Part shown: positions 30,270 to 49,079 of the stretch, piece after piece
Layout of the letters: each line of letters starts with the position of its first letter
Position numbering within the stretch: position 1 is the first letter of the stretch
NCBI RefSeq assembly: GCF_900101505.1
Contig: NZ_FMZI01000001.1
Span: 1-64,000, forward strand
Direction: 5' to 3'
Source: Antarctobacter albus
GTDB lineage: Bacteria > Pseudomonadota > Alphaproteobacteria > Rhodobacterales > Rhodobacteraceae
Length of the DNA: 64,000 nt
Position numbers and translations under genes: made by a program
The notes under the pieces: generated by a model
What the model saw: the letters and a program-made list of their open reading frames with translations, nothing else
What the model was told of the DNA's origin: nothing
The model's database searches: none

Positions 30270-30276
30270 GGCTGCC

Positions 30277-30915: not shown

Positions 30916-30926
30916 GAGAGACAGGC

Positions 30927-31673: not shown

Positions 31674-31677
31674 CGGT

Positions 31678-34187: not shown

Positions 34188-34612
34188 CCGATGATCTCCA
34201 CGTCCGTGCGGCTGCGCAGGTCCAGGTCCTGCGTGCAGGCGTCGGCACTGTCGGCCTCGCAGGTCTCGGCGCCGTTGATCAGAAGGCGGCCCAGGTCGGA
34301 ACAGGCCAGGCCGGAAACAAGGAACTGGCGCACGCGGGGGCGGGCGGCGGGAAGATCCCCGAAATCGAACAGGGTCATACGATCCACGCGGCCCTCGGTG
34401 TCGAACAGAACCGCCTCGTAGACGGCCTGCGCGATGTCGTTGGTGTGGCCGTTCTGGATCAGGAAGCTGATGCGACAGGCGCCGTCGACCGGCTCCAGCG
34501 CGTTGAGTTCCAGCGAGACATGCGCACCCTGCACGGTTTCTGCCTGCGCGGGTGCCGCAAGGGTGATGGCAAGGGCGCAGAGCGCCGGAATGTCAAAGGA
34601 CGGAAGGTTCAT
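34184..34612 (-). CDS. small exported protein of the haem/Ton operon
   Basis: The 142-aa protein has an N-terminal signal peptide (MNLPSFDIPALCALAITLAA, cleavage after AQA). I do not recognise the family. The mature part has three or four cysteines (GACRISF, SGLACSDLG, ETCEADSADAC) that could form disulfides. It is fused to exbB by an ATGA overlap and so is probably a periplasmic accessory of the Ton motor or haem system. Codons upstream of 34612 are open but not gene-like. Confidence 0.7.
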   Translation of the reverse strand: MNLPSFDIPALCALAITLAAPAQAETVQGAHVSLELNALEPVDGACRISFLIQNGHTNDIAQAVYEAVLFDTEGRVDRMTLFDFGDLPAARPRVRQFLVSGLACSDLGRLLINGAETCEADSADACTQDLDLRSRTDVEIIG

Positions 34613-34697
34613 CAAACCAGCCCCCATCGGTGGGTTTTCGTGTCTGGCTGGGGCTGGACACCCGGGCTGGTTAATCATGTGCCTAGCAGGCGGGGTC

Positions 34698-34718
34698 CTG
34701 TCAGGCAATACCTGACAG
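34698..34718. promoter_or_regulatory. perfect 21-bp palindrome inside the haem operon
   Basis: CTGTCAGG (34698-34705) and CCTGACAG (34711-34718) are perfect inverted repeats around CAATA. The site lies in the 116-base gap between a 55-codon gene and the exported-protein/exbBD/tonB genes, about 90 bases before the 34612 start. No T-run follows on either strand, so an operator for a second promoter is more likely than a terminator. Confidence 0.5.
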
Positions 34719-34728
34719 AAAGAATTGG

Positions 34729-34896
34729 CTATTGAGGGCGGCGCGGATCGGGCGCCGGTCCCGTCGCCCGCTGCAGGTCGATCAATTGTTCCAGCGCCAG
34801 ACCCGTGCTGTCAGACGGATCCGTGCCGGATTGCAGAATCTCGCGCCAGCAGACCGTGCGGAAACGGTCGTCCTGATCCTGGCAGGGGGCGCTCAT
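34729..34896 (-). CDS. small protein (55 aa) of the haem operon
   Basis: A 55-codon frame starts at ATG 34896, overlapping the stop of the haem monooxygenase gene (ATGA). It encodes MSAPCQDQDDRFRTVCWRE through GLALEQLIDLQRATG to a proline/arginine tail. No family is recognised. Two cysteines (C5, C16) are present and there is no signal peptide. Coupling to the monooxygenase and codon use typical of the region support it as real. Confidence 0.6.
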   Translation of the reverse strand: MSAPCQDQDDRFRTVCWREILQSGTDPSDSTGLALEQLIDLQRATGPAPDPRRPQ

Positions 34897-35216
34897 GCCG
34901 CCCGGGCCTCGATGCTCTGGATGGAGGTGAAGCCCTCGAACCGGGGCGCACCTTCGTGCAGCTTGCGGCTCTGGCCGGCGCGGGCGTGGGCGGCACGGAA
35001 TTCCTCGCTGCCGGTCCAGGCGCGGAAATGCACCTCGGTTTCCCAGACGGTGTGCGAGGCATAGAGGATCCTGCCGTCTTCCTCGGGGCCGCGCAGCATG
35101 TCGAAGGCGACAAATCCCGCCATGTCGCGGAGGTGGCTTTCGCGCGACAGCCAGAGATCCTCGAACTCGGCCGCGTTCTCGAGCAGGACGGTAAAACGGT
35201 TCATTGCCAGGTACAT
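34893..35216 (-). CDS. IsdG/HmoA-like antibiotic-biosynthesis-type monooxygenase, probable haem-degrading
   Basis: The 107-aa protein has the dimeric ferredoxin-like ABM fold. It starts MYLAMNRFTVLLENAAEFED with Asn6, then has LWLSRESHLRDMAGFVAFDML and TVWETEVHFRAWTGSEEF. IsdG-type enzymes use an Asn/Trp/His set that has candidates here. Its position beside hmuSTUV and ChaN supports haem breakdown to release iron. GGGAGA precedes ATG 35216. Confidence 0.82.
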   Translation of the reverse strand: MYLAMNRFTVLLENAAEFEDLWLSRESHLRDMAGFVAFDMLRGPEEDGRILYASHTVWETEVHFRAWTGSEEFRAAHARAGQSRKLHEGAPRFEGFTSIQSIEARAA

Positions 35217-35228
35217 GGCGGTCTCCCC

Positions 35229-35972
35229 TCAGTTTGTTTTCAGGCTGGCGCAGGGATCGTCACGCTCTGCCGGGGGGACGATGGTGACCGTGTCGAAGGG
35301 CATGTCGGTCGGGCCTTCGACAAAGCCCGTTGCATGGGTCGTCACCTCTGGCGCGGCTCGGGCGATCATGGCGGGAACGCCCCAGTCGGTGCGGGCATGA
35401 CCATTGCCCGCGATCACCGCGACGGGCGGGCCGTAGCGGTCCAGCGCCTCCAGCGCGGCGCGGGCAAAGACGGCGTCACGGTAGCGCTGGACCTCGACCA
35501 TGCCCGCCATCATCTCGCGCGGCATGGCCCGGCAATGGGCCTCGAACTGCATCTCTTCGCGTTGGGTCTGCTGTGCCCCGGGCAAGGGGGCATCCAGGCC
35601 GAACCTTGGCGCATCGCTGCCAAAGAGCGCGGCGGCGCCATCGCCATAGACCGCACGCACGTTCTCGCGCGGTGCTGCAGCGCCGACGATGCGCGCCGCG
35701 CCCAGGGCGTCGAAGATCGGGGCGTACAGCGCGTAGTCCGGCCAGCCAGAATTGCCCCAGATCGCGGGGATCTGGTCGCGGTCCTGATCGGCGCGGCGTG
35801 CGTCGTCGGGTGTCAGCATCTCAAAGACCACGGCGGTGGGCTGCAAGGTTTCCAGTGCTCGCGCCTGCCCGATGTGCGCGTCGGGATTGTCGTGGACCTC
35901 TCCGAGGATGACGATATCGGGATCGGCGAGCGCGGGCGTGGCAAGGCAGAATATGAGGGCGGCAAGGCGCAT
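35229..35972 (-). CDS. ChaN-family haem-binding protein
   Basis: The 247-aa protein has a signal peptide (MRLAALIFCLATPALA) and the ChaN/DUF399 fold: IVILGEVHDNPDAHIGQARAL (core cited), VFEMLTPDDARRADQDRD, MAGMVEVQRYRDAVFA and VIAGNGHARTDWGVP. ChaN of Campylobacter binds two haems between two monomers. Unlike that protein this one has no convincing lipobox, so it may be free in the periplasm. ATG 35972 was chosen because the signal peptide begins there. Confidence 0.85.
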   Translation of the reverse strand: MRLAALIFCLATPALADPDIVILGEVHDNPDAHIGQARALETLQPTAVVFEMLTPDDARRADQDRDQIPAIWGNSGWPDYALYAPIFDALGAARIVGAAAPRENVRAVYGDGAAALFGSDAPRFGLDAPLPGAQQTQREEMQFEAHCRAMPREMMAGMVEVQRYRDAVFARAALEALDRYGPPVAVIAGNGHARTDWGVPAMIARAAPEVTTHATGFVEGPTDMPFDTVTIVPPAERDDPCASLKTN

Positions 35973-35982
35973 GGGTGACCTT

Positions 35983-36765
35983 TCAGGCGGATGCTGCGTG
36001 CGGCAGGATAAAGGGAATGTCCGCCGGCGGCGGGGCAGAGACGCGCAGCGCACAACCGTAGGCGCGCGACAGGGTGTCGTCGGTCAGGACGTCGGCAGGG
36101 GGGCCGAAGGCCACGCGCCGCCCCTCGGCGAGGACGGCGATCCGGTCGGCGAATAGCGCGGTCAGGTTCAGGTCATGCATGACGGCCAGGACCCCGCCAC
36201 CGCCGCGCGCAAAATCCCGCGCGATCTCCATCACCTGCAACTGGTGCGCGATGTCGAGGCTGGAGACCGGTTCGTCCAGCAGGAGCCACCGGGGCGCGCC
36301 GTCCTCGACCGGCGCCCAGACCTGTGCCAGCACTCGCGCCAGCATGACGCGCTGTGCCTCTCCGCCCGAGAGATCCTGGAACAGCCGGTCGGCGTAATGC
36401 GCCAGCCCGACGCGGGCCAGCGCCTGCATCGGCACCTCTGGCCGGTCGCCCGCCGTGCCCGCCTGCAACCCGATGCGCACGACCTCGATCACCGTAAAGG
36501 GAAAGGCCAGGCGAGAGGCTTGCGGCAGGACGGCGCGGGTGGCGGCCAGTTTCCAGGCGGGCTGCCCCGAGACGTCCTGCCCGTTCAGGCGTACGTGGCC
36601 CCGGTGCGGCAGGGTGCCGTCGATCGCACCCAGCAGGGTGGATTTGCCCGACCCGTTGGGGCCGACGATGGCCGTGACCTCGCCCGGCTCTGCGGTCAGG
36701 CTGACGCCGCGCAGCGCCTCGCGGCGGCCATAGCGGACCCGGATTTCCTGTGCCTCCAGTGTCAT
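35983..36765 (-). CDS. hmuV: haem ABC transporter ATP-binding protein HmuV
   Basis: The 260-aa protein has Walker A GPNGSGKST, signature LSGGEAQRVMLARVLAQ, Walker B WLLLDEPVSSLDIAHQ and His in AVMHDLNLTALFAD. These are FecE/HmuV-type features. The ATG overlaps the hmuU stop (ATGA at 36762-36765). It powers haem import across the inner membrane. Confidence 0.94.
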   Translation of the reverse strand: MTLEAQEIRVRYGRREALRGVSLTAEPGEVTAIVGPNGSGKSTLLGAIDGTLPHRGHVRLNGQDVSGQPAWKLAATRAVLPQASRLAFPFTVIEVVRIGLQAGTAGDRPEVPMQALARVGLAHYADRLFQDLSGGEAQRVMLARVLAQVWAPVEDGAPRWLLLDEPVSSLDIAHQLQVMEIARDFARGGGGVLAVMHDLNLTALFADRIAVLAEGRRVAFGPPADVLTDDTLSRAYGCALRVSAPPPADIPFILPHAASA

Positions 36766-37829
36766 GTTTCGACCATCCCCCGTCGTTTCAGCAGGATCCA
36801 CAGAAAGACCGGCGCGCCCAGAACGGCGGTGACGATCCCGATGGGCAGTTCGGCGGGGGCGATGATGACGCGGGCGATCACATCCGCCAGGATCAGCAGG
36901 CTGGCCCCCAGAAGCGCCGAATTCAGCAAGAGCGTGCGGTGATCCGGGCCGGACCGCAGCCGCAGAAGGTGTGGCACCACGATCCCGATGAATCCGATGC
37001 CGCCCGAGACGGCGACCGCGGCGCCGGCGGCACCCGCCACGGCAAGGATGGCGATGTTCTTCATGCGCTGGACGTTGATGCCGATATGGGCGGCGGTCGC
37101 CTCTCCCAGCGCCAGCGCGTTCAGCCCGCGCCCCAGCATCAGGGCCGCGCCGATGGACAGCAGGATCAAAGGCCCTGCCGCGAACACCTTGGCCCAGCTT
37201 GCCCCGGCGAGCGACCCCAGCCCCCAGAATGTCAGGTCGCGCAACTGCCGGTCATCGGCGATATAGACCAGGATGCCCGAGAGCGCCCCGGCCAATGCCC
37301 CCAGCGCGATGCCTGCCAGCAGCATTGTCGCGACAGAGGTGCGCCCGTGGCGGGTGGACACGCGATAAAGCAGCAGGGTCGACCCCCAGCCGCCAAGGAA
37401 AGCGGCGAAGGGCGTCAGATGGTTGCCGGTCAGCTCCTGCATCCACGCGGGCAGCAAGGCGCCCAAGACGATGGCCAGGATTGCGCCCAGCCCGGCGCCT
37501 GCGCCCACGCCGACAATGCCGGGATCGGCCAGAGGGTTGCGGAACAGCCCCTGCATGGCCGCGCCGGACACGGCCAGCGCGGCACCCACAAGGATACCCA
37601 TCGTCAGGCGTGGCAGGCGGATGTCAAAGAGGACAACCCGTTCCATCTGGCTCAGGGCCTCGCCGCTGACCAGTTTGCCCAGCAGGGCGGTCAGGGTCAC
37701 ATCGGCGGCGCCAACCTGCAGGCTGGCCAGCGCGCAGAGCAGCAGGAATGCGGCCAGCATCCAGTGCAGCGCGCGAGCGCGGGACAGCCGGTCGCGCGGC
37801 GGGACAAGAGGGTCCGTGATCGCGGTCAT
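36762..37829 (-). CDS. hmuU: haem ABC transporter permease HmuU
   Basis: The 355-aa protein is a FecCD/BtuC-type permease with about ten membrane segments. Conserved parts include LPRLTMGILVGAALAVSGAAMQGLFRNPLADPGIVGVGAGAGLG (start and end cited) and GGIGFIGIVVPHLLRL. It begins four bases after hmuT. Confidence 0.95.
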   Translation of the reverse strand: MTAITDPLVPPRDRLSRARALHWMLAAFLLLCALASLQVGAADVTLTALLGKLVSGEALSQMERVVLFDIRLPRLTMGILVGAALAVSGAAMQGLFRNPLADPGIVGVGAGAGLGAILAIVLGALLPAWMQELTGNHLTPFAAFLGGWGSTLLLYRVSTRHGRTSVATMLLAGIALGALAGALSGILVYIADDRQLRDLTFWGLGSLAGASWAKVFAAGPLILLSIGAALMLGRGLNALALGEATAAHIGINVQRMKNIAILAVAGAAGAAVAVSGGIGFIGIVVPHLLRLRSGPDHRTLLLNSALLGASLLILADVIARVIIAPAELPIGIVTAVLGAPVFLWILLKRRGMVET

Positions 37830-37833
37830 CGGA

Positions 37834-38733
37834 TCAGCCCGGCGTCCCGTAAAGTGCCGCGTTCAGCGCCTCGACCGCCTCTGCCGTGCGCGGGCCGAAA
37901 CCAAGCATCAACAGCCCGTCCATGCGCACCACGGACCGGGTCTCCGCCGCCGGGGTCAGGCGGATGGCGGGCATGTCGAACAGCTCGTCGTCCGCCGCCG
38001 CATGGTCGCCGCTGCGGTCCATCATCAGGATCACGTCGGGGGCCGAGATGCCCACGGCCTCGTCGGTCAGGTGCTTGTAGCCGGTGAAATCGTCGACGGC
38101 GTTCACGCCGCCGGCCATGCGGATGATCGCATCCGCCGCCGTGCCGGTGCCCGAGGCGTTGATCTTGCCGCCATCTGTGGACAGGACAAAGAGCACGCGC
38201 TTGCGATCCTCAGCGGGGATGTCGGCGCGAGCCTGCGCCGTATCCAGTGCCGCGCCGACCTCTGCGGCCAGTTCCGTGGCCCGGTCCGGCACGCCCAGGG
38301 CGCTGCCGATGATCTCGATCTTGGAGAGGATGCCGGCGGCGTCCAATGCGTCGGGCACCTCGACATAGGCCACGTCGGCTGCGCGGATCACCTCCAGGGC
38401 CTCGGGCGGTCCGGCGCCTTCCTCTGACAGGATCAGGCTCGGGCCGACCGAGAGCACGCCCTCGGGAGACAGCGCGCGCATGTACCCCACGTCCGGCAGG
38501 TTGGTCACTGCCGGGGGGTAGGTCGAGGTGGTGTCGCGGGCCAGCAAGCGGTGCTGCTGACCCAGGGCCACCACGATTTCCGTCACTGCGCCACCGATCG
38601 ACAGGACATCCGCCTGCGGGTGGGCGGGGGCAGGTTGCTGGGCGGAAACGGTCAGCGCCACAAGCCCGCCGAACATGGCGGTCGCAAGGCTGGTGAATAT
38701 GGCCAGGCCATTGGAAGATTTGCAGAATCTCAT
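37834..38733 (-). CDS. hmuT: haem ABC transporter periplasmic binding protein HmuT
   Basis: The 299-aa protein has an N-terminal signal peptide (to about residue 31, VSAQQ) and a class III binding-protein fold. SIGGAVTEIVVALGQQHRLL, TTSTYPPAVTNLPDVGYMRAL and the Tyr in PDVGYMRALSPE, the usual haem ligand region, are visible. The start overlaps the hmuS stop by four bases. Confidence 0.93.
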   Translation of the reverse strand: MRFCKSSNGLAIFTSLATAMFGGLVALTVSAQQPAPAHPQADVLSIGGAVTEIVVALGQQHRLLARDTTSTYPPAVTNLPDVGYMRALSPEGVLSVGPSLILSEEGAGPPEALEVIRAADVAYVEVPDALDAAGILSKIEIIGSALGVPDRATELAAEVGAALDTAQARADIPAEDRKRVLFVLSTDGGKINASGTGTAADAIIRMAGGVNAVDDFTGYKHLTDEAVGISAPDVILMMDRSGDHAAADDELFDMPAIRLTPAAETRSVVRMDGLLMLGFGPRTAEAVEALNAALYGTPG

Positions 38734-39788
38734 GCCGGAACCTCTTCGCGTGCGGGCAGCGCCGCGACGATCCGGCCCCAGTCGGGCCGCGAGTCACGGC
38801 CTTCCTTGCCGACGCCGAAGACCTGGAAGATCAGGGCGCCATCGGCGTCGAAGGCCTCGACAGAGATGGCGGGCCCGCGCTGCGTGGGTTTTTCCACGGC
38901 CCAGACCTCGGCCACCTTGTCCAGCCGCAGGTGCAGGTTGAATCCGGGGTCCATGACGTTCTGCCAGGGACCCATCGGGTGAAGGGTCTTGATCGGGCCG
39001 GAATGGATCTGGATGCAGCCCCGGTTGCCGACAAAGATCATCACTTCGACCCCGGCGTCGCGCACCGCCTCCAGCATGGCGTTGACCGCCTCTGGCGCCA
39101 GCGCGCGCACAAAGGGCGCACCCGCTATCCGGTAGGCGCCAAGACGGTTCATCTTGAGCTTGGAACACAGCAGCAGGAACTGGTGCGTGTCGGTCAGCCG
39201 CGCCCATTCCTCGCGCAGGATCTCCAGCTTGTCGGGACGCGATTTCGCCGCCTCGACGGGTGTGCGGGGCGCCACCGCCTGGCCCGGAGCCTGGTCGGGC
39301 AGCGCCAATTCGGACACCAGACCGGCCCATGCGTCATGGTTCGAGGTCTCGCGCAGGTGGATCTTGTGGATCGCGTCGCCCGCCGCATCGAAGACCTGCA
39401 ACGACCGGCGCGGGGCGGCGCCGTCCTGGCCGGGCGTTTCGACCGCGTAGGCATGCACCCAATGCGAGGGGAAGATGCGTAGGTCGATGTCCTCGGCCAG
39501 CACCATCGCGGCATGTTCTCCGGGATGATAGTTGGCATAGGTCCCGACCTTTTCGTGCACGCAGCCCTCGACCCGGGTCAGGGCCATGACCTCGCCCAGG
39601 CGCTCTGCGCCCGGCATGATCCGGTCGGGGTGGGCGTCGATGCGGGTTGTACCGTCACCGACACGGGCCGCGGCAAGCTGGGCCTCGGCGATGCCCAGCT
39701 GCGTGGCAAGATCGCGCGCGCGCATCCTGGGGTTGTCCGCCTTGGCGGCACGGATCTGTTGTGGTGACGGCGTAAGCTGCTCGGTCAT
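38730..39788 (-). CDS. hmuS: haemin-degrading factor / haem chaperone HmuS
   Basis: The 352-aa protein has two HemS/ChuX-like repeats. The first half contains VMALTRVEGCVHEKVGTY and the second VGNRGCIQIHSGPIKTLHPMGPWQNVMDPGFNLHL (partly cited), with conserved haem-contact His and Arg residues. It takes haem from HmuTUV and may degrade it or pass it on. It is the first gene of the long minus-strand haem unit and is divergent from the receptor gene. Confidence 0.93.
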   Translation of the reverse strand: MTEQLTPSPQQIRAAKADNPRMRARDLATQLGIAEAQLAAARVGDGTTRIDAHPDRIMPGAERLGEVMALTRVEGCVHEKVGTYANYHPGEHAAMVLAEDIDLRIFPSHWVHAYAVETPGQDGAAPRRSLQVFDAAGDAIHKIHLRETSNHDAWAGLVSELALPDQAPGQAVAPRTPVEAAKSRPDKLEILREEWARLTDTHQFLLLCSKLKMNRLGAYRIAGAPFVRALAPEAVNAMLEAVRDAGVEVMIFVGNRGCIQIHSGPIKTLHPMGPWQNVMDPGFNLHLRLDKVAEVWAVEKPTQRGPAISVEAFDADGALIFQVFGVGKEGRDSRPDWGRIVAALPAREEVPA

Positions 39789-39858
39789 GACGTCCTCGGG
39801 TCAGGGAAAGTCTGCTGGCTTCGCCGGACTGCTGCCCCGCGTGGCTTACGTTAATTAC

Positions 39859-39880
39859 TTGACTATTTTAGTCTGAATAT
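39859..39880. promoter_or_regulatory. divergent haem promoter with palindromic iron-responsive site candidate
   Basis: GACTA (39861-39865) and TAGTC (39869-39873) form a small perfect palindrome in an AT-rich patch midway between hmuS and hmuR. It overlaps a TTGACT -35-like hexamer. It resembles what I recall of the Iron-Rhodo box attributed to IscR in Rhodobacterales, but I cannot confirm the consensus here. Confidence 0.5.
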
Positions 39881-39986
39881 CCTAAGGCTGCAACCCGTCA
39901 CGATAAGATTTATCGCCCAGGCAACAATTCGCCCGCGCCAGCCTTCGCAAGCCACGGCACCTAAATGGACACGAAGGAAGGCGCAT

Positions 39987-42014
39987 ATGCTCACTCATCT
40001 CCTGCGCGGAACCACCGCGCTTGTCTGCATGTCGCTGGCTTTGCCAGCGGCTGCACAGGACGCCCCGGGGTTCCTTGGGACGCTGGTTCTGACCGGCGGC
40101 AAACGGGACCTCACCCATGGCACGGCGCTGTCGCGCACCGTCATCGACGAGGAAGAGATCCAGGACCGCCAGGCCAGCACGGTGGCGCAGCTTATTGATT
40201 CCGTGCCCGGCGTGACCCTGGTCAACGGGACCACGCCGCAGGGGTCCGGGATCAACATTCGCGGGTTTGGCGCGAATACCACCTATGGCTCGGACCAGAA
40301 GATCGCGGTGCTGGTGGATGGCGCCGCCGTCGGGTCAGAGGAACTGTACCGGATCGGAACGCAGCTCTTCACCGATCCGCTGCTATACAAGAACGCCGAG
40401 GTCCTGCGCGGCACCATCGGCAGCTTTGCCTACGGGTCGGGGATCGTCGGCGGGGTGGTCAAGCTGGAAAGCAAGGATGCCTCGGATTTCACCGGCGGCG
40501 TTCCGGGCTTTGCCGGTGCCCAGACCTTTGAATTCAGCTCGAACGGGGCGGGGAAGGTTAGTTCGACGACCCTGGCCTGGCAGCCTGCCGATCGCGCGGA
40601 GTTCCTGCTCAACTACACGCTCCGGGATCAGGACGACCTGACCTCGGGCGACGGGCGGACCATCGGCAACAGCGCCTTCCGCACACCCTCGGGGCTGGCC
40701 AAGGCCAAGTTCACCTTTGGCCAGGACGACGCGCATGAGCTGACCTTCAGCTATTCGCAGACCGTGGCCGATGACAAGGACGTGCCCTATGACCAGTTCG
40801 CCACCACCGGAGGCACATTCGGCAATGTCGACCGGCTGACCGACACGCGGCAGGCGGTGATCGACTACCGCTTCAACCCGGTCAGCGACCTGGTGGACAT
40901 GCGGGTGAACCTGTCCTTCGCGGACCAGGTGATCGAATATGACTATGTCCCCGGCTCATCACCGCTGGAGGGGACGCCGACCTTTCCTTTCCTTGTCGGG
41001 ACGGTCAACGCGGACCAGCGCTATCAGACGACCAAGCTGACCCTGTCGAACCGCGCGCTGTTCGGCTCGGACGCTGTCGGGCATGACCTGCTTGCGGGTG
41101 CCGAGTTCATCCACCGGGATCGCAAGGACAACGATGCCGCCGGCGCCCCGGGCGGGTCCGACCGGCGCTTTGCGCTGTTCCTCGTGGACGAGATCTCGAT
41201 GGGCGCCTTCACGGTCACGCCGGCGCTGCGCTACGAGACCTCGACCGTCGAAAGTGCCACCACTTATGGCAAGTTCACCAATGATGCGCTGATGGGCGGG
41301 CTGGCCCTGTCCTATGATATCGGCAACGGAGTCTCGGTCTTCGGCAGTGCCGCCTATACCGAGGGCCTGCCGATCATCGACGACCTGGGCGCCAGCGCCA
41401 CGGCACTTGCCCGCATGGATACCACCGAAAAATCGCATACCTTCGAGTTCGGGGCGGAATACACCGGCTCGGATGTCTTTGGCACGGGCGATACTTTCAC
41501 CATTCGCGGCAACCTCTATGCCACGACCATGTGGGACATCACCAGCTACACCGCCGCAGGGTCCACCTCGACCAACCTCGACCGGGTCGAGACACGGGGA
41601 CTGGAGCTGGAGGCCTCTTACGGGCATGCCAGCGGGGCCTATGTCGATTTCGCGGGCCACGTCGGTTCTGGTGAGGAATTCGCCCCGGGCGCGGGCGGCA
41701 TCACGTGGCGCAACACCGCCGCCGACCGCGTGCAACTAACGCTGGGCAAGAAATGGGATGACGGGTTGGACCTGAGCTGGGAGGTCGTGCATTCCGCAGA
41801 CCGCCGCGATGCGCTGGGCGCCGATCTGGACAATGTCACCCTGCACAACCTGCGCGCCACCTGGCGGCCGGACCGGGCGGCCTGGATGACGGGCACCGAG
41901 GTGCGGTTCGGGATCGAGAATGTCTTTGACGCCGATTATGTCGGGCACCTGTCCTCGCCCACGCGCAAGGCGCCTGGCCGGACCTTCAAGGTCAGCCTGA
42001 CCAAGACGTTCTGA
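39987..42014 (+). CDS. hmuR: TonB-dependent haem receptor HmuR
   Basis: The 675-aa outer-membrane protein has a signal peptide (MLTHLLRGTTALVCMSLALP, cleavage near AAAQ). The plug domain (about 40-155: TVAQLIDSVPGVTLV, GINIRGFGANTTYG, VLRGTIGSFAYGSGIVGG) is followed by a beta-barrel. It ends GRTFKVSLTKTF with the C-terminal Phe needed for outer-membrane assembly. Divergent hmuSTUV identifies the ligand as haem. GAAGGAAGG precedes ATG. It is followed by a strong terminator. Confidence 0.94.
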   Translation: MLTHLLRGTTALVCMSLALPAAAQDAPGFLGTLVLTGGKRDLTHGTALSRTVIDEEEIQDRQASTVAQLIDSVPGVTLVNGTTPQGSGINIRGFGANTTYGSDQKIAVLVDGAAVGSEELYRIGTQLFTDPLLYKNAEVLRGTIGSFAYGSGIVGGVVKLESKDASDFTGGVPGFAGAQTFEFSSNGAGKVSSTTLAWQPADRAEFLLNYTLRDQDDLTSGDGRTIGNSAFRTPSGLAKAKFTFGQDDAHELTFSYSQTVADDKDVPYDQFATTGGTFGNVDRLTDTRQAVIDYRFNPVSDLVDMRVNLSFADQVIEYDYVPGSSPLEGTPTFPFLVGTVNADQRYQTTKLTLSNRALFGSDAVGHDLLAGAEFIHRDRKDNDAAGAPGGSDRRFALFLVDEISMGAFTVTPALRYETSTVESATTYGKFTNDALMGGLALSYDIGNGVSVFGSAAYTEGLPIIDDLGASATALARMDTTEKSHTFEFGAEYTGSDVFGTGDTFTIRGNLYATTMWDITSYTAAGSTSTNLDRVETRGLELEASYGHASGAYVDFAGHVGSGEEFAPGAGGITWRNTAADRVQLTLGKKWDDGLDLSWEVVHSADRRDALGADLDNVTLHNLRATWRPDRAAWMTGTEVRFGIENVFDADYVGHLSSPTRKAPGRTFKVSLTKTF

Positions 42015-42085: not shown

Positions 42086-43534
42086 TCATTTCACGCGGGT
42101 GCCGTCGATGATGCGGACGCGGGTGGCGGCGCCTGCAAGCGGCCCCGCATCGCGCAGGATCGCCAGCATCGCCAGCCGGTCGGCGGGGGCAAGCCGTGCG
42201 CCGTCCAGTCCCCGCAGCGCCTGCATCAGGCCGGGCGGCAACGCGGGGTACAACAGGCACCCCAGCAGCGTCTCCGCCGGTGGCCCCATCGCGGGCCAGT
42301 AGACATGGTTCCCGCCGGGCAGCGGTGGCAGGTCGTCGGGCAGGGTGAGCCTCTGACCCGCATTGACCCGCACATCAGGCGCATAATCGGCGGGCAGGAC
42401 GATGTAGAACTGCCCGTGTTCATCCAGCGACAGGCAGACCAGCGCCCCGGCACGGTCGGCCCCCAGTGTCAGCCGCATCAGGCTGTCGGCGCAATCACTG
42501 GGCACGCGGGCCGCGTCCGTGGCGCGGCAAACGGGGTAGATCCCGGCCCGCCCGCCGGAGGGTGTCAGGGTCAATTGCCCCTTGCCCATCGCCGCCAGCG
42601 CGCCCGCGATCCCGTCCAGCCCGGTGCTCTGCGCCATGTTGGCCGGATCCAGCAGCGCCCGCAGATGCGCAGGCATCCGCAGCGAGGACAGGTCCAGCGT
42701 GCGCGAGGCCCGCAGGGCACCGTCCTGCGACAGGCGCAGCACCAGTTGAAAGCGGTTGCGGTCGATCAGGCGGACACTTCCGCCCAGGTAATAACCGCTC
42801 GCGGGGGGCGGGCCGCGCCGCACACGCGCCGGGGGCGCATCACGCAAGAGCGCCGTGACGGAATTGGCCGCATCCAGCCAGGCCTCGACCGCCATGTCCG
42901 CCAGCGCCAGACCGACGGGCGTTTCCAGCCCCGAGGTCTCGTTCACGAAGGCGCCGATTGTGATCTCGGCCCGCGCCTCGGGCAGCATGTCCAGGAATTG
43001 GCGGATGGCGGCGCCGATGGCGGCACGCGGATCGCCCCCGGCCTGCCCTGTCAGCCCGGTCAGTGGCCTGTCCGAGGTCTTGACGATCACGCGCCCGTCG
43101 CTGAGATCGACCAGCGTCAGCCGCAGGGTTACGTCGCCGGCCGCGATGCCGGTTTCCCCGACCAGCACGAAATCCGCCTCTTGCCGGAGGGTGGATTGCA
43201 CGGTCTCCTGCCAGGCGGCGGTGCCCTGCCGGTTCAGCACCAGGGCCAGCGAGGCGCGCAATTCGGCACTTCCGGCCAGGATCCGCGGCTTGGCGGGCCA
43301 ATCTGCGCACATTTCCTGGGCGGCGCGGCTCATGATCGCCTCGACCTGGGCCACCGGCAGCGGCGTTTCCGCCGCAAGCGGTGCCGCCAGGGCGATGGTG
43401 CTGCCCGCCGGTATCTGCCCCTCTGCCATGCGGCAGAGTTCCGCGCCCAGCACGGTTTCGGCCTGCGCCAGGGCGGGCCGGGGCAGGGCAAGCGCCAGCG
43501 AGACAAGGGCAGACAAGAGGGCAAAGCGCAACAT
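42086..43534 (-). CDS. exported protein with DUF4384-like C-terminal domain, partner of the WD40-caspase gene
   Basis: The 482-aa protein has a signal peptide (MLRFALLSALVSLALALPRP, cleavage after ALA). The middle (about 60-240) has SDRPLTG and TIGAFVNETSGLETPVG segments like penicillin-binding-activator or FlgT-type domains; this comparison is loose. The C-terminus (GALVCLSLDEHGQFYIVLP ... LPDDLPPLPGGNHVYWPAMG) resembles DUF4384, a domain often found with bacterial caspases and kinases. It starts three bases after the caspase stop, so the two are tightly linked. Its role is unknown. Confidence 0.7.
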   Translation of the reverse strand: MLRFALLSALVSLALALPRPALAQAETVLGAELCRMAEGQIPAGSTIALAAPLAAETPLPVAQVEAIMSRAAQEMCADWPAKPRILAGSAELRASLALVLNRQGTAAWQETVQSTLRQEADFVLVGETGIAAGDVTLRLTLVDLSDGRVIVKTSDRPLTGLTGQAGGDPRAAIGAAIRQFLDMLPEARAEITIGAFVNETSGLETPVGLALADMAVEAWLDAANSVTALLRDAPPARVRRGPPPASGYYLGGSVRLIDRNRFQLVLRLSQDGALRASRTLDLSSLRMPAHLRALLDPANMAQSTGLDGIAGALAAMGKGQLTLTPSGGRAGIYPVCRATDAARVPSDCADSLMRLTLGADRAGALVCLSLDEHGQFYIVLPADYAPDVRVNAGQRLTLPDDLPPLPGGNHVYWPAMGPPAETLLGCLLYPALPPGLMQALRGLDGARLAPADRLAMLAILRDAGPLAGAATRVRIIDGTRVK

Positions 43535-43537
43535 GGG

Positions 43538-45364
43538 TCAGTCTTCCGTGACGTATTCCGCCAGCACGTTGTCCTCGCTGCCGGGCAACAGGCTGGGCGA
43601 CTGGCGCAGGTCCTGCTGCGCCAATCTTTCGTCGATGTGATCACGCAATTCCGACAGGCGGATGCGCCCGTCGCCATCGGCATCCGCCGCACCGCGCAAC
43701 CCCTCCAAAGTGTAATAGCTGAAGGCGCCCTGTTCCTTGTCGTCCAGCCAATGCGCGAATTGAGGCGTGCGGAAATCGGTGGCCGTCAGGACGGACACCC
43801 GGGCCTTTTCCTGCGGCGGGGCCACCGCGACGCCGAAGGCGCCCGAGACGCCGGGCACCAGACTGCCCTGCGTCGACAGGCCGGAAAAACAGGCGTCCAG
43901 CAGGACGGTGACGGATTTCACCGGCAGGGTTTCCAGCTGGCGGATCAGCATGTCCAGCGGGTAAGCGCCAAAGCCGGGCTCGGCGGCGGGCACGTCCACG
44001 GGCAGAAGGTAGCCGCTGGGCAGGCCCTCTTCGTGAAAGACCGGGACACCGTGGCCGGAGTAGATCACCACGATCTCGTCGACAAAGCGCGCCCGGCGGG
44101 CCAGCCGCCCGTCCGGCACCTCGTCGGTGCCGAACCAGCGCGCCATGCCGATCGAGTTCAGGTCCTTTTCGACGATGATGTTTTCCTGAGGGACCTGCAG
44201 GGTCTCGCGGAAATAACGGGCAAAGGCCTCGGCATCGTTGTGGGCATAGGCGACGGGCGGCGCCTCGGCATAGCTGCGGTTGCCGATGATCAGGACCAGC
44301 GTTTCGGGCCGGGCGACGGCCACGGTGACAGGCGCCTTGAAGGCGGGCTGAGGTGCCGCGATCACCGGTTGGCGTTCGGGCAGATCGGGCCAGAGCATCT
44401 CTGGCAGCGACCACAGCCGAACCGTGCCGTCCCAGCTGGCGGTCAGCAGGCTGCGCCCGTCGGGCGCGAAATCCACCGCGTCGATCGAAGCGCCGTGACC
44501 GTCGAAGACCTGCAGTTCCTCGCCCGTTTCGACGTTCCAGAGATAGGCCTTGCGGTTCCATTCGCCCGTCAGCGCCAGCGCGCCGTCCGGGCTGAGATCG
44601 ACGGCGCGGATCGCGGCCTCATGGCCGGGAAAGCGGCGCAGGACCTTGCCGGTCTCCACTTCCCAGAGGATCGCGCTTTTATCCCAGCTGCCGGTGATCG
44701 CTTGCTTGCCTTCGGGGCCAAAGGCCACAGAGAGGATCAGCGCCTCGTGACCGTCGAGGCGGCGGATCTCCTCGCCGCTTGCCATGTCCCAGAGCCGGGC
44801 GGTGCGGTCGGTGCTGCCGGTCAAGAGGCGGGTGCCGTCCGGGCTGATGGCAAGCGAGGTGATGGTTTCCGCGTGGCTGGCAAAGCTGCGCAGCTCGGCG
44901 CCACTGCGCAGGTCCCAGAGCCGGGCGATGCCGTCATTGCCGCCGGTGACGGCCTGCCGCCCGTTGGGGCTGTAGGCGGCAGAGGTAAAGCGCCCGCCGT
45001 CCTGCGCCAGCTTGAGGACTTCCTTGCCGGTGGACAGGTCCCAGACCCGCGCGGTGCCATCGGCACTGGCGGTCAGGGCGCGGGTGCCGTCGGGGCTGAA
45101 GGCGACACCGCTGACGCGATGTTCGTGGCCTTCGAGGATGGCCAGCCCGCGCTGGGTCGAGACCTCCCAGAGTTCGGCGGTGAAATCGGCGCTGCCCGTC
45201 AGGACATGCCGCCCGTCGGGGCTGAATGTAGCGGCGTCGATGGCGCCCTGGTGGCCGGTCAGCACGGTCGAGGCCGGCTCTTCGGCCCAGAACGGGCCGG
45301 TTGGGCAAAGCACGGCCAGGGCAATCGCGAGGGCGAACCGGGGCAGGGGCGGGTTGCGTCGCAT
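43538..45364 (-). CDS. exported WD40-repeat caspase-family protease with EF-hand loop
   Basis: The 608-aa protein starts with a signal-peptide-like segment (PRFALAIALAVLCPTGPFWA, about 8-27). Seven WD40 repeats follow (about 32-325), enough for one closed propeller. A caspase (peptidase C14) domain (about 352-560) has His438 in VVIYSGHG and Cys492 in VTVLLDACFSG. Residues 561-572 (DADGDGRIRLSE) form a perfect calcium EF-hand loop. Most bacterial WD40-caspases are cytosolic, so export is unusual. ATG 45364 was chosen because the hydrophobic leader begins there; 45376 is an alternative. Substrates may be the neighbouring proteins. Confidence 0.9.
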   Translation of the reverse strand: MRRNPPLPRFALAIALAVLCPTGPFWAEEPASTVLTGHQGAIDAATFSPDGRHVLTGSADFTAELWEVSTQRGLAILEGHEHRVSGVAFSPDGTRALTASADGTARVWDLSTGKEVLKLAQDGGRFTSAAYSPNGRQAVTGGNDGIARLWDLRSGAELRSFASHAETITSLAISPDGTRLLTGSTDRTARLWDMASGEEIRRLDGHEALILSVAFGPEGKQAITGSWDKSAILWEVETGKVLRRFPGHEAAIRAVDLSPDGALALTGEWNRKAYLWNVETGEELQVFDGHGASIDAVDFAPDGRSLLTASWDGTVRLWSLPEMLWPDLPERQPVIAAPQPAFKAPVTVAVARPETLVLIIGNRSYAEAPPVAYAHNDAEAFARYFRETLQVPQENIIVEKDLNSIGMARWFGTDEVPDGRLARRARFVDEIVVIYSGHGVPVFHEEGLPSGYLLPVDVPAAEPGFGAYPLDMLIRQLETLPVKSVTVLLDACFSGLSTQGSLVPGVSGAFGVAVAPPQEKARVSVLTATDFRTPQFAHWLDDKEQGAFSYYTLEGLRGAADADGDGRIRLSELRDHIDERLAQQDLRQSPSLLPGSEDNVLAEYVTED

Positions 45365-45386
45365 GGTGGAGGCCATCCTGTATGTC

Positions 45387-46070
45387 TTACCAGGTGATGG
45401 TGATGTTGCCGTCCTTGTCCTTTTGCAGCGTGCCGGGCAGGGGCTGTTCGGGCGGGGCAACCGGCTCGACGCTTTCGACGGGCGGCGGAGCCGTCGGTGC
45501 GGCTGCTGGGGCGTTCGCCTCTGGCCTTGCGGGCAGCAGCAGCGTGACCTCGACCCGGCGGTTGATTGCGGCGGTCGGATTGCCGGGCGTCTTGAGACGC
45601 GTCTCGCCAAAGCCCACGGCCACCAGGCGTTGCGGGTCGATCGGGAAGTTCTCAACCAGAAAGCGCGCGACGCTTTCGGCGCGGCGTTCCGACAGCCAGA
45701 GATTGTAGGCATCATCGCCCGATGTGTCCGTGTGGCCCGCGATCAGGTAACGGTGCGGGCGCAAAGCCGAGGAGGCCAGCGCATGACCCAGCGCGGCCAG
45801 GTCCTCACGCGCGCGCCAGGTCAGTTCGTAACTGTCGAGCGCAAAGAAGACCTGCAGGTCGATGCTGTGCTGCGGCACCACCCAGACCGTGCGCCCGCCG
45901 ATCTGCACACCGCGTGCGGCTTCTTGCGCTGGGGCGGTGCTTTCCTGCTGGACCGGGGCCAGCGAGGTGATGATCTTCTGGATGTCTTCGGCCTGGTCGG
46001 CCTGCACGGGCAGGGCAGCGGCAAGGGCAAGGCTCAGTCCGGTGAGCCACTTGGGGGCGGTGATTGTCAT
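45387..46070 (-). CDS. OmpA-domain periplasmic/outer-membrane protein, second of pair
   Basis: The 227-aa protein has a signal peptide (to about residue 24, VQADQ). The helix AEDIQKIITSLAPVQQ is close in sequence to one in the other OmpA-like gene of this cluster. An OmpA peptidoglycan-binding domain follows (about 75-185: FFALDSYELTWRAREDLAALG, IAGHTDTSGDDAYNLWLSERRAESVARFL, INRRVEVTLL). A proline-rich tail follows. It lies 22 bases before the caspase gene. Confidence 0.9.
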   Translation of the reverse strand: MTITAPKWLTGLSLALAAALPVQADQAEDIQKIITSLAPVQQESTAPAQEAARGVQIGGRTVWVVPQHSIDLQVFFALDSYELTWRAREDLAALGHALASSALRPHRYLIAGHTDTSGDDAYNLWLSERRAESVARFLVENFPIDPQRLVAVGFGETRLKTPGNPTAAINRRVEVTLLLPARPEANAPAAAPTAPPPVESVEPVAPPEQPLPGTLQKDKDGNITITW

Positions 46071-46102
46071 GTCTCTTCTCCCTTGGGTACGGCGGCGCGG
46101 GG

Positions 46103-47044
46103 TCAGTTTCCGCGCAGCAGGTCGGTGACGCCGCCAGAGCTCAGGCCGGCCCCCGAGGGCGCGCGGCGGCTTTCCAGCGGCACGTCGGTTGCGGGGGCCG
46201 TGGGCGGCGTGGCGGGTGTTGCCGAAGCGGCGGCGCCGGTGATTTCGCGCAGCAGGCCGGAGTCTTGCAGGATCGCGCTCAACCGGGTGCTCTTGTTGAA
46301 GCTGCGGTCGTCGTTGGGGGTCATGCCGCCGGAATGGTGCAGCGCCACGGGGCGCAGTTCGCGGTCAAAGAGGATCGAGCCGGAACTGCCGGGTTGGGTG
46401 TCGCAGCGGTGGCGCAGGATCGGCCCGCCGTCCTGCTCGCGCAGGGCGAAACAGCGGAACCGCGTCATGACCTGCGGGCGGCCCAGCGGATGATGGATCA
46501 CCATCAGCGGATCGCCCGGGTCGACGGCGACATCCTCGATCAGCAGCGGCAGGACATCCTGCGGAATGTCGGTCATGCGCACGAGGCTGAAATCCAGTAC
46601 CGAATGCCAGTCGGCAGGATCAATGGACAGCGTGTAGCGTCGTGTGTCCTTGTCGCCCTGCACCAGGTAGCCGGTCAGGATCGAGCCGGCGAGCAACCTT
46701 TGCGAAGCGTTCTCGGGAATGCAGTGGTGGTTGGTCAGGACCCAGCCACCGGGCAGGATCGCGCCGGTACAGGTCACCAGGTCACGCCCGCCCCGGTCGT
46801 TCTGTTCCAGCAGGTCTACCCGACCGATGGCCGCGGCAAGGCGGCGGATGGGATCGTCGGCGGGCAGTTCGCGGATCGGCTCGAACGCACCGTCCTGGGC
46901 CGCGATGTAGGCGCTGGCATTGCCGGAGCTTTCCAGGAAGACGAGGTCGGTCTTGCCATAGTCATCGGCAGAGAAGGTCGCGACCTGGGCCAGTGCCGGA
47001 GCCGTGGCCAGCGACAGGGTGAGGGCGAAGGCGAGACGGAGCAT
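46103..47044 (-). CDS. exported trypsin-like serine protease
   Basis: The 313-aa protein has a signal peptide (MLRLAFALTLSLATAPALAQ). The chymotrypsin-fold triad is visible: His107 in WVLTNHHC, Asp151 in SVLDFSLVRM and Ser221 in DTQPGSSGS. A Cys pair around the His (CTGAILPGG, HHC) suggests a disulfide. The last 60 residues are Ala/Pro-rich, a likely disordered tail. ATG 47044 was chosen over an upstream in-frame start because the signal peptide begins there. It sits between an unknown exported protein and an OmpA gene. Confidence 0.9.
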   Translation of the reverse strand: MLRLAFALTLSLATAPALAQVATFSADDYGKTDLVFLESSGNASAYIAAQDGAFEPIRELPADDPIRRLAAAIGRVDLLEQNDRGGRDLVTCTGAILPGGWVLTNHHCIPENASQRLLAGSILTGYLVQGDKDTRRYTLSIDPADWHSVLDFSLVRMTDIPQDVLPLLIEDVAVDPGDPLMVIHHPLGRPQVMTRFRCFALREQDGGPILRHRCDTQPGSSGSILFDRELRPVALHHSGGMTPNDDRSFNKSTRLSAILQDSGLLREITGAAASATPATPPTAPATDVPLESRRAPSGAGLSSGGVTDLLRGN

Positions 47045-47116
47045 CCTGTGGGTCTTTCGATCTGCGGGGGCCTTGGGATGCGCCGAGGCACGGCGCATCC
47101 CGGTCTTCGATTGGGT

Positions 47117-48100
47117 TCAACGGTTGCCCATCAACCCGATCTTCTGGATCTCGAAGCGGTTCCCCGCCATTGCGATCCGGGCCTGGACGCCCATCGACTC
47201 GACCATCAGGCGCAGGTTGCGGTTCAGCCGCGCCACGTCCGAACAGGTCTCGTACCAGTAATCGGCGCTGGTCATGGTCACGCGGACAGGGCGGTGGTGG
47301 TCATAGCCCTTGAAGCCCGCCAGGTAACCTTCGATCAGGGTCATTTCCTGGGGCTGGAACCCGGTGAAGGCCAGCGTGTAGGCGGTGGTCAGGCCGGTGC
47401 AGCCCGCGGGTGCCGGGACGACCGGCTGCTGGGCGACGGGGGGTGTCACGACAACCGGCTGTTGCGGCATGGGTTGGGGGCTGGCAGGCGAGAGCACGTC
47501 GAGTTTCGTGGCCAGGACGCGACCGACTTCGGCGCCGATGGTCTTGGCCTCGTTGCCGACATGTTCCAGCACGCAGTCGCGGTTGCAGACACGCGGCAGC
47601 GAGGCGACGGGGATCTCGCCTGCGCCGGGGCCGAAGGCGACCTCGAAATTGCCGAGGCTCTGCATGGTCTGTGCGTGCAGCATGCGGCCCGTCACCCGGA
47701 TGCGCAGGTCCAGCACGTCGGGGATATAGGGGTTCTGGTTGGCCGAGGCGTAGATCTGGATCGGCAGGATCACGTCGATCGGCACGTTGGGCACGCGCTG
47801 GGCCAAGGCGATCAACTCTGCATCCGACCGGCGCACGCGGTTGGGATCGGTAAAGCTCATGATGACGCCGGTCTGGTCGTAGACGCGAAAGCCCATCGTC
47901 TGCATCTCGGTAATGACGGCGCGCAGCACGCGTTCGAACACGCGCGAGTTGCCGGGCACCGTGTCGAGGTCTGCGTCCTCGGGCACCGGCAGGATGTTGG
48001 GCTGGTCGCCTGCGTAGCCTGGTGCCGGGGCAAGCGAGAGGGCCAGCACGAGCGCCAGGCTCGCGAAGGCGCCCATCAGGGTCTTGGTCAGGGTTTTCAT
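47117..48100 (-). CDS. exported protein of unknown function in the caspase-trypsin operon
   Basis: The 327-aa protein has a signal peptide (cleavage near APGYAGD, about 30). The first domain (about 35-210) includes SRVFERVLRAVITEMQTMGF and PIQIYASANQNPYIP and may bind other envelope proteins. A proline/glutamine/valine linker (PMPQQPVVVTPPVAQQPVV) follows. The C-terminal domain of about 95 residues has two cysteines (PAGCTGL, WYETCSDV). I recognise no family with certainty. Conserved direction and spacing place it in the six-gene operon. Confidence 0.75.
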   Translation of the reverse strand: MKTLTKTLMGAFASLALVLALSLAPAPGYAGDQPNILPVPEDADLDTVPGNSRVFERVLRAVITEMQTMGFRVYDQTGVIMSFTDPNRVRRSDAELIALAQRVPNVPIDVILPIQIYASANQNPYIPDVLDLRIRVTGRMLHAQTMQSLGNFEVAFGPGAGEIPVASLPRVCNRDCVLEHVGNEAKTIGAEVGRVLATKLDVLSPASPQPMPQQPVVVTPPVAQQPVVPAPAGCTGLTTAYTLAFTGFQPQEMTLIEGYLAGFKGYDHHRPVRVTMTSADYWYETCSDVARLNRNLRLMVESMGVQARIAMAGNRFEIQKIGLMGNR

Positions 48101-48164
48101 GTGGGACTCCTCCAATGTGGTCCGGATTTCCGCGCAGCGCCCGGGCGGGCGCGGCGCCAATGGC

Positions 48165-49079
48165 TTAGTGAAGAACGATGATGCGGCCGTCGGGCTGGAC
48201 GATCACCCGGCCCGAGGCCGGTAGGGCCGGGTCGCAGTCGATGCCCGGCTCGGGCGAGAAATCGTCGAGGTCCAGCGCCTTGCCGTCCGGGCTGACGACA
48301 CCGGCGGGGCAGGGCGGCAGCGGCGGAACGTACTGCGCGCCGGTCTGCGGCGGCAGCATGGGTTGCGGCGCCGGCTGCTTGTCGAGGTCGCTGGTCTGCG
48401 GCGCCGGTTGCGGCACGGGCAGGGGCTGTGGGACCACCGGCTGTACCGTGTCGATCAGCGTGATCTCGACCCGCCGGTTCTCGGCAGCATAGGGATCGGC
48501 GGGGTTGCGCGGATAGCGCTCGCCCCAGCCGACCACTTCCAGCCGCCACGAGGGGATCGAGTGATAGCGCATCAGGTAGCGCTTGACCGCCCAGGCCCGG
48601 CGATAGGACAGGTCGACGTTGTAGTCCTCGGGACTGCGCGCATCGGTGTGTCCGGCAATCAGGTAGCGGTTGTTCATCAACTGCGCCGACCGCAGGGCCT
48701 GGCCGATCAGGTCCAGGTCCCGACGGGCGGGCGGCGTCAGAAAGGCGCTGTCATGGGCGAAATACACCGTCACGTCCAGGCTGTAGCCATAGTTCAGGAC
48801 GATGGGCCGCCGGTCGATGATGATGGTCGTGGGCCGCCCCAGGATCACCGGCGGCAGGAACACATCCGGCAGGGGGTGCGTGACCACGGGCGGCGATCCG
48901 GTCGGCGGCGTGGCGGGCTGACCGGCCATCGGCGCCAGCGACTTGATGATCGCGGTGACGCTGTCCGCCCGCGAGCTGTCCAGTTGCAGGGTTTCGGTAT
49001 TGGTTTGCGCATGGGCCGGAGAAAGGGCTCCGACCGCGACGGCAAACAGGATGGAAAGTCGTTTTCGGGTCTTGTGCAT
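48165..49079 (-). CDS. OmpA-domain protein, first of pair, first gene of the caspase operon
   Basis: The 304-aa protein has a signal peptide (MHKTRKRLSILFAVAVGALS, cleavage after AHA). The helix SRADSVTAIIKSLAPMAGQ resembles that of its paralog. An OmpA domain (about 100-210) has VYFAHDSAFLTPPARRDLDL, IAGHTDARSPEDYNVDLSYRRAWAV and ENRRVEITL. A proline/glutamine linker and a C-terminal piece with a Cys pair (PPCPAGV, GIDCDPALP) follow. It probably anchors the system to peptidoglycan. Confidence 0.9.
   Translation of the reverse strand: MHKTRKRLSILFAVAVGALSPAHAQTNTETLQLDSSRADSVTAIIKSLAPMAGQPATPPTGSPPVVTHPLPDVFLPPVILGRPTTIIIDRRPIVLNYGYSLDVTVYFAHDSAFLTPPARRDLDLIGQALRSAQLMNNRYLIAGHTDARSPEDYNVDLSYRRAWAVKRYLMRYHSIPSWRLEVVGWGERYPRNPADPYAAENRRVEITLIDTVQPVVPQPLPVPQPAPQTSDLDKQPAPQPMLPPQTGAQYVPPLPPCPAGVVSPDGKALDLDDFSPEPGIDCDPALPASGRVIVQPDGRIIVLH

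Follow-up and report, generated by a model that had tools for sequence, protein, structure and literature searches.

We analyzed a window of 64,000 nucleotides from Antarctobacter albus (contig NZ_FMZI01000001.1, positions 1 to 64,000; host genome, 5.26 Mb), in which six open reading frames (ORFs), g1 to g6, run in the same direction on the minus strand from position 49079 to 42086. An earlier note, made from the letters of this DNA, had described an operon of two OmpA-domain proteins, a trypsin-like protease, a WD40-caspase, a DUF4384-like protein, and one unrecognized protein, with gaps of 3 to 72 bases. Our coordinates and strand agree with this, the gaps from g1 to g6 being 64, 72, 32, 22, and 3 bases, and domain scans return the same gene content, with a weak DUF4384 match for g6. 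Gene content, conservation, purifying selection, neighborhood association, predicted folds, and leader and cysteine signatures suggest that the genes probably encode a periplasmic, wall-anchored module of two proteases engaged in envelope surveillance.

The six genes and their products

48165..49079, minus strand: g1, OmpA-family protein of 304 amino acids (aa), predicted to be exported (PF00691, E 1.1e-19)
47117..48100, minus strand: g2 (family G2), two-domain protein of 327 aa, predicted to be exported (predicted fold; no credible profile match)
46103..47044, minus strand: g3, Trypsin_2 serine protease of 313 aa, predicted to be exported (Trypsin_2, E 5.9e-14)
45387..46070, minus strand: g4, OmpA-family protein of 227 aa, predicted to be exported (PF00691, E 3.1e-20)
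43538..45364, minus strand: g5, caspase of 608 aa with seven WD40 repeats, predicted to be exported (WD40, NF047832, PADLOC caspase)
42086..43534, minus strand: g6, DUF4384-like protein of 482 aa, predicted to be exported (PF14326, E 2.4e-4, under cut-off)

The start of g3 most likely lies at 47044, near the start positions of its relatives. A scan for promoters and terminators found one promoter-like site (0.5 expected) and six terminator-like sites (3.7 expected) and was not used.

The caspase g5 combines seven WD40 stretches recognized by Pfam with a domain matched by NCBIfam NF047832 at E 4.3e-15, yet at 55.8 bits against a cut-off of 140, and by the PADLOC caspase model at E 1.1e-6. Its His438 and Cys492, located in the GHG and DxC motifs of the peptidase C14 His-Cys dyad, are invariant in all five genus sequences, so the catalytic pair is intact as the earlier note had it; an [DE]xC motif is present in 27 of 34 caspase relatives. 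A PF00656 search of the host's own genome detected two other caspase genes and missed g5, indicating that g5 is a divergent caspase; these two further caspase-domain genes lie outside the window, on own-genome contigs 20 and 27 (L001, L002). g5 also carries an EF-hand-like loop, DADGDGRIRLSE. Such a loop occurs in only nine of 34 caspases, and calcium control is therefore not proposed for the family; a sequence search for solved relatives of g5 in the PDB returned only light-chain matches through this loop (E 0.06), which were rejected.

The triad of g3, His107/Asp151/Ser221, is likewise intact, being invariant in five of five genus sequences and kept in all 16 aligned sequences, as expected of a chymotrypsin-fold (Trypsin_2) serine protease. 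The best solved relative is the V8-like glutamyl endopeptidase 1p3c (E 2.2e-6), from which g3 differs in its pattern of four cysteines, a proline/alanine-rich linker, and a conserved C-terminal tail, DLLRGN. Thr216 and His236 of g3 are invariant and stand at places that we take to favor Glu in V8-type enzymes; by this residue correspondence, g3 may prefer Glu at P1. We considered deducing P1 specificity from Asp215 by itself but gave this up, since an Asp also occupies the corresponding position of the glutamyl endopeptidase. Of 17 trypsins, 15 have a tail of the LLRGN or ILRGR type after the Pro/Ala linker, with T replacing R in one. This tail (window 46103-46200 and relatives) is conserved after a disordered-looking linker and could possibly act as a docking or self-inhibiting peptide.

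Both OmpA proteins match PF00691 above cut-off and carry the wall-binding motif GHTD...LSxxRA (GHTD...N..LS..RA..V at 143 in g1; at 112 in g4), whose Asp and Arg take part in peptidoglycan binding by the OmpA_C domain. The claim of two peptidoglycan-binding partners is thus supported at the level of motifs. g1 has an N-terminal IIKSLAP motif and a C-terminal ALDLDDF stretch common to Methylobacterium OmpA genes of the same cluster, and g4 has IITSLAP and ends in ITITW. Across the family, 15 of 41 members end in I-x-W or V-x-W, the type of g4, and 13 of 41 carry DLDDF near the end, the type of g1.

g2 has no credible match in Pfam, NCBIfam, or PADLOC, and its family none among solved structures searched by sequence. 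In an AlphaFold 2 (AF2) model with a predicted local distance difference test (pLDDT) score of 82.5, residues 29-205 match the flagellar H/T ring protein FlgT (3w1e; VIA-align Z 11.2, root-mean-square deviation (rmsd) 3.5 over 150 residues), the likeness to FlgT being confined to this span. PelC, CsgG, LptE, and TolB follow at Z 8.8 to 10.6, and a second small alpha/beta domain occupies residues 236-327. g2 is therefore predicted to share the fold of FlgT, CsgG, PelC, LptE, and the N-terminal domain of TolB (TolB-N), which are grouped as a superfold of outer-membrane-associated accessory proteins. Four G2 proteins (L089, L090, L091, L092) have an N-terminal extension; that of L089, the only one scanned, weakly resembles FlgT_N (E 0.024).

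The match of g6 to DUF4384 (PF14326) reaches 21.6 bits, under the gathering cut-off of 27, and a relative in locus L040 reaches 59.8 bits. In its AF2 model (pLDDT 81.6), residues 23-160 match LpoB (4q6l; VIA-align Z 10.1, rmsd 3.5, 122 residues), predicting an LpoB-like N-terminal domain, and the C-terminal part resembles beta-sandwiches at Z under 8. A sequence search for relatives of g6 returned only weak FlgO-domain matches (E 0.15). A single-protein search of the order with g6 found the own genome and one marginal match (2/292).

Of the neighbors scanned, those downstream are heme-uptake genes (a TonB receptor, a HemS-like protein, and a periplasmic binding protein) and the one upstream encodes a CHAD protein. 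In a genus relative (G002, L011), the 5.6 kb past g6 contained nothing matching the receptor, so the six genes form a separate unit. The heme/iron uptake neighborhood (window 29400-42014) holds ATP-binding cassette (ABC) genes, the periplasmic binding protein, the HemS-like protein, and the TonB-dependent receptor adjoining the operon, as well as an ExbB-type protein at 33531-34187 and, by eye, ExbD- and TonB-like ORFs.

Conservation and wider neighborhoods

The six-gene order is found in six species of Mameliella, Antarctobacter, and Maliponia, counting that of the window; in one of them, an Antarctobacter, g6 is truncated. Four genus relatives share it at 74-97% identity, as does Maliponia aquimaris (L055). 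In Antarctobacter heliothermus (G001; L010/L054), no homology to g6 remains beyond about residue 161, close to where the contig ends; an insertion is our guess, and a blastn search of the end piece against the collected loci gave no match. Another genus relative, G003, had no match to g2 or the CHAD gene. Ratios of nonsynonymous to synonymous substitution (dN/dS) were 0.035-0.186 over all gene pairs compared and 0.035-0.105 for g2; the operon genes are under purifying selection. With the own genome counted in each case, g2 occurs in five of the 61 genomes that make up the relatives set, every one of the five from the genus, in 12 of 385 genomes of the class (E up to 0.01), and in 11 of 398 of the phylum (E up to 1e-5). 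The caspase domain (E up to 1e-10) occurs in three of 244 genomes of the order: the own genome, G230, which has the cluster, and G291, which lacks it.

A G2 profile search of the genome collection yielded 42 loci, including ones in Methylobacterium, Methylorubrum, Microvirga, Actibacterium, Terasakiella, Rhodospirillaceae bins, and a few gammaproteobacteria. G2 is accompanied there by OmpA (32), DUF4384 (27), caspase (26), and trypsin (17) genes, by members of three further families, CL2 (20), CL4 (20), and CL3 (19), and by a lytic transglycosylase (9). At least one of these partners or of CL8, CL11, and CL20 is present in 41 of the 42 loci, and one locus has none. The nearest copy lies on the G2 strand for OmpA in 32/32, DUF4384 in 26/27, caspase in 24/26, and trypsin in 17/17. 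Weakening these counts, the partner profiles were built from the same loci in which they were counted, some loci are near-identical, L057 and L060 share one contig, and several contigs are short. For these reasons a fresh phylum-wide draw was made, in which nine of ten loci had partners (L117 had none; L114 is on the same contig as L087). As a control, 20 stretches of 19.9 kb from ten G2-matching genomes contained one OmpA and one weak trypsin match, and no caspase, G2, DUF4384, or CL gene. Compared with this control, the association of the genes is not due to chance.

Beyond the genus group, gene content is conserved rather than order. On all contigs of sufficient length in Methylobacterium and Actibacterium, the genes run caspase, DUF4384, CL2, CL4, CL3, trypsin, OmpA, G2. 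The earlier note had made its idea of a shared system depend on synteny elsewhere; relatives are indeed syntenic, but among the loci seen only the Mameliella-Antarctobacter-Maliponia group has precisely this order of six genes. In a hand-picked subset of up to 21 of the 42 loci (between 15 and 21 for each family), protein distances of G2, OmpA, and trypsin correlate with rho of 0.70, 0.80, and 0.87, and those of DUF4384 with these three at 0.46-0.67. It is hardly credible that ordinary envelope genes merely travel together with no joint function: OmpA, trypsin, and WD40 families are each widespread by themselves and gene order varies beyond the Mameliella group, but partners in all but one of the G2 loci compare with any match in only two of 20 control stretches, and the G2, OmpA, and trypsin distances are correlated.

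Representatives of G2, CL2, CL3, and CL4 matched no Pfam, NCBIfam, or PADLOC model above cut-off. CL3 proteins are mostly leaderless and show, by eye, a mid-chain hydrophobic helix; profile matches at E 0.057 give them a weak resemblance to Lon, and a Lon-like front part is tentatively suggested. NCBIfam rows for CL3 (E 0.0014, 18.5 against 100 bits) and CL11 (E 0.027) were judged to be chance. The CL3 of an Alteromonadaceae bacterium (L087, 13159-14500) carries a fused Ser/Thr protein kinase domain (PF00069, E 2.6e-34), a hint of signaling. The contig shared by L057 and L060 holds two opposite-strand clusters, each with its own G2, OmpA, and DUF4384; one has the caspase and trypsin and the other CL2-CL4-CL3, and the G2 is 58% identical to that of the window. 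Two small families, C6 (about 138 aa) and C9 (about 177 aa, with several hydrophobic stretches), recur in L074, L080, L085, L040, and L113 beside the lipoprotein-like CL11 and CL20. By eye, C9 had looked like a TolQ/ExbB-like motor and CL8 like an ExbD/TolR-like partner, but hhalign probabilities of 0.8 percent (three-row reference alignment) and 0.2 percent (two-row reference alignment) led us to drop both. Two large clusters from neighbor clustering, C0 and C1, proved to be known genes read on the reverse strand and were disregarded.

Some of these data would be accounted for by a machine for envelope assembly or export, such as those that FlgT, CsgG, and PelC serve. There, the caspase and serine protease would mature an exported client with no stress cascade. 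G2 is similar to accessory proteins of rings or secretion (FlgT, CsgG, PelC, LptE), g6 resembles LpoB, the lytic transglycosylase recurs as noted, and an ABC-transporter ATPase and permease appear, at scattered positions, in seven and five of 49 clustered loci. We consider this machine unlikely: no outer-membrane pore or obvious client was seen by eye among clusters present in at least four loci, the proteases are missing from many loci, and no link of C9 and CL8 to TolQ/ExbB or ExbD could be established.

The patchy distribution of G2 across the class and phylum would also fit an anti-phage or programmed-death module, in which injury by phage entry or lysis triggers the periplasmic caspase and trypsin and kills the cell; caspases and trypsin-like proteases serve in antiviral systems, according to the accessible text of PMC12799240. 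This seems improbable. The five flanking proteins scanned are of heme-uptake, CHAD, and alcohol-dehydrogenase types and not defense genes, PADLOC gave no support for a defense-system identity of the operon and matched none of the CL2, CL3, CL4, and G2 representatives, and the low dN/dS of g2 also speaks against it. A G2 search matched nothing among phage records and a single plasmid record, the latter match being a relative of 43% identity at 415761-416606 of NZ_AP014706.1, a 463-kb plasmid of Methylobacterium aquaticum typed as mobilizable.

Export signatures

All six window proteins begin with Sec-type leaders by inspection, as the earlier note had proposed. A home-made heuristic that chooses the best start codon scored leaders in relatives of the caspase (29/34), trypsin (15/17), DUF4384 (25/26), OmpA (38/41), and G2 (60/61) families, and in CL2 (2/25), CL4 (0/23), and CL3 (8/22); these counts exclude leaderless members running off the locus edge (three caspase, two DUF4384, one OmpA, and one G2). 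Being duplicates, loci L010-L013, L036, and L050 entered neither the leader counts nor the first cysteine counts.

Cysteine parity is independent support for export, on which the earlier note had also made its idea of a shared system depend. Disulfide-forming compartments favor even cysteine counts, and the mature counts of g1 to g6 are 2, 4, 4, 0, 1, and 6, odd only in g5, where the one residue is the catalytic cysteine. In non-redundant sets (cysteines counted after residue 28; near-identical members and those under 150 aa dropped), counts are even in G2 (42/44), OmpA (26/30), DUF4384 (16/19), and trypsin (7/7) and odd in 22 of 25 caspases, as expected of one free catalytic cysteine plus disulfide pairs. 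CL2 (9/19) and CL4 (12/21) are random, and CL3 is even in 6/20. Together, leaders and cysteine patterns point to Sec export of the caspase, the trypsin, and their partners into an oxidizing compartment.

Leaders on all six proteins would also suit secreted or surface proteolysis directed at outside proteins or competitors, for nutrition or fratricide, with the OmpA proteins as surface anchors. Surface or fratricidal roles have been suggested for extracellular metacaspases (PMC3501461, accessible text). We give this a slim chance, as CL2 and CL4 are leaderless, CL3 has its mid-chain helix, and two peptidoglycan-binding OmpA proteins point to the periplasm.

Relation to known systems and proposed role

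Several described systems share parts of this gene set. In a 2012 survey (Asplund-Samuelsson et al., PMC3501461), as far as its accessible text goes, 14 of 217 metacaspase operons contain an OmpA domain, and metacaspase N-terminal helices are considered possible signal peptides with possible surface roles. Caspase homologs with WD40 or TPR, an N-terminal helix, and OmpA are thus common to those operons and ours; G2, DUF4384, and the CL2-CL4-CL3 set are not described there, no system is proposed, and the terms trypsin and periplasm do not appear in that text. Kaur et al. (2020, PMC7159879), on vWA-MoxR ternary conflict systems, VMAP, and iSTAND, often name caspase and trypsin; by the accessible part of that paper, conflict systems with OmpA effectors occur among the vWA-MoxR systems, and iSTAND variants carry OmpA, PEGA, PASTA, or Sel1 domains near the membrane and wall. 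In the window set, by contrast, the proteases are separate exported proteins, and no MoxR ATPase or vWA gene was recognized by eye among unassigned neighbor clusters in at least four loci. The Canu (caspase-nuclease) and trypsin-nuclease defense pairs (PMC12799240) also use a caspase or trypsin-like protease as a regulated effector, but the window operon lacks a nuclease domain, and the accessible text of that paper does not contain the terms periplasm, signal peptide, or OmpA. DUF4384 and WD40 accompany caspase domains in cyanobacterial orthocaspases (PMC7475262), but within one protein, and OmpA, trypsin, and periplasm are absent from the text accessible.

The operon resembles Tol-Pal in its OmpA-type wall-binding proteins, the TolB-N-like fold of g2 (TolB 7mx5, Z 9.2), and the beta-propeller of g5 (TolB propeller model, E 1.4e-6, far under cut-off). 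In g5, however, the propeller is fused to a caspase and not to a TolB-N-like domain; the six-gene operon contains no motor genes, and hhalign supports no relation of C9 and CL8 to TolQ and TolR. Nor does it belong to Zorya: g1 and g4 match ZorB models weakly and mainly over the OmpA part, and no other Zor model was matched by the six window proteins or ten wider-cluster proteins. The earlier note had proposed the set as a candidate new system. The full set was not found described in open-access papers, most subscription-journal papers and preprints being outside this scope, and the recurrence of related sets in distant bacteria suggests an undescribed proteolytic system outside the cytoplasm; OmpA in metacaspase operons and possible signal peptides, however, were already reported in the accessible text of the 2012 survey (PMC3501461).

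We give an even chance to the six genes being the extracytoplasmic arm of a module for proteolytic surveillance. The two OmpA proteins would tether it to peptidoglycan, while the FlgT/CsgG/TolB-N-like G2 and the LpoB-like DUF4384 protein would form a scaffold or sensor at the outer membrane or wall. The WD40-caspase and the serine protease would be two effectors, released or allosterically activated upon envelope disturbance, which would then cut envelope or partner proteins. We infer the physical complex, trigger, order of activation, substrates, and outcome, as well as the protease cascade and damage sensor of the earlier note.

Several observations weigh against this module. The case is built on sequence and predicted structure, and the leader score is a heuristic of our own making that picks the best start. 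Sixteen of the 42 G2 loci have no caspase within the available DNA, seven of 34 caspases have no [DE]xC motif (some are perhaps cut off or divergent), and no such cluster accompanies a caspase relative in the same family (G291, L051). The distances of the caspase show poor correlation with those of the other families (rho 0.22-0.40), so the caspase may be swapped or optional; it may be the most exchangeable part, or the nearest caspase may not always be the ortholog. The correlated distances elsewhere may mirror species descent alone. G2 is highly conserved within the genus group and thus does not have the look of an arms race. CL2 was not found in six of six genus genomes, with no positive control among the six, so the window-type set might be a remnant. 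CL3 and CL4 are absent from the window, the search of the genus genomes having covered CL2.

With appreciable doubt, we extend the surveillance module to a trans-envelope caspase pathway, in which cytosolic CL2 and CL4, CL3 as a Lon-like transmembrane protein, and a periplasmic complex of G2, OmpA, and DUF4384 anchored to the wall would jointly control the exported caspase and serine protease. In Methylobacterium and Actibacterium, leaderless CL2 and CL4 together with CL3 would pass a signal across the inner membrane, while in the window operon, which lacks CL2, CL3, and CL4, the periplasmic arm would sense alone, making the Mameliella form a self-contained periplasmic version.

To our knowledge, the bacterial caspase and trypsin modules studied so far are read as cytosolic. 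If the trans-envelope pathway holds true, caspase signaling would extend outside the cytoplasm, and a conserved set that exports a caspase and a trypsin with wall-binding partners would give caspases a role in envelope biology. The relatives would add a membrane-spanning link, and the families G2, CL2, CL3, and CL4 are on offer beyond existing models.

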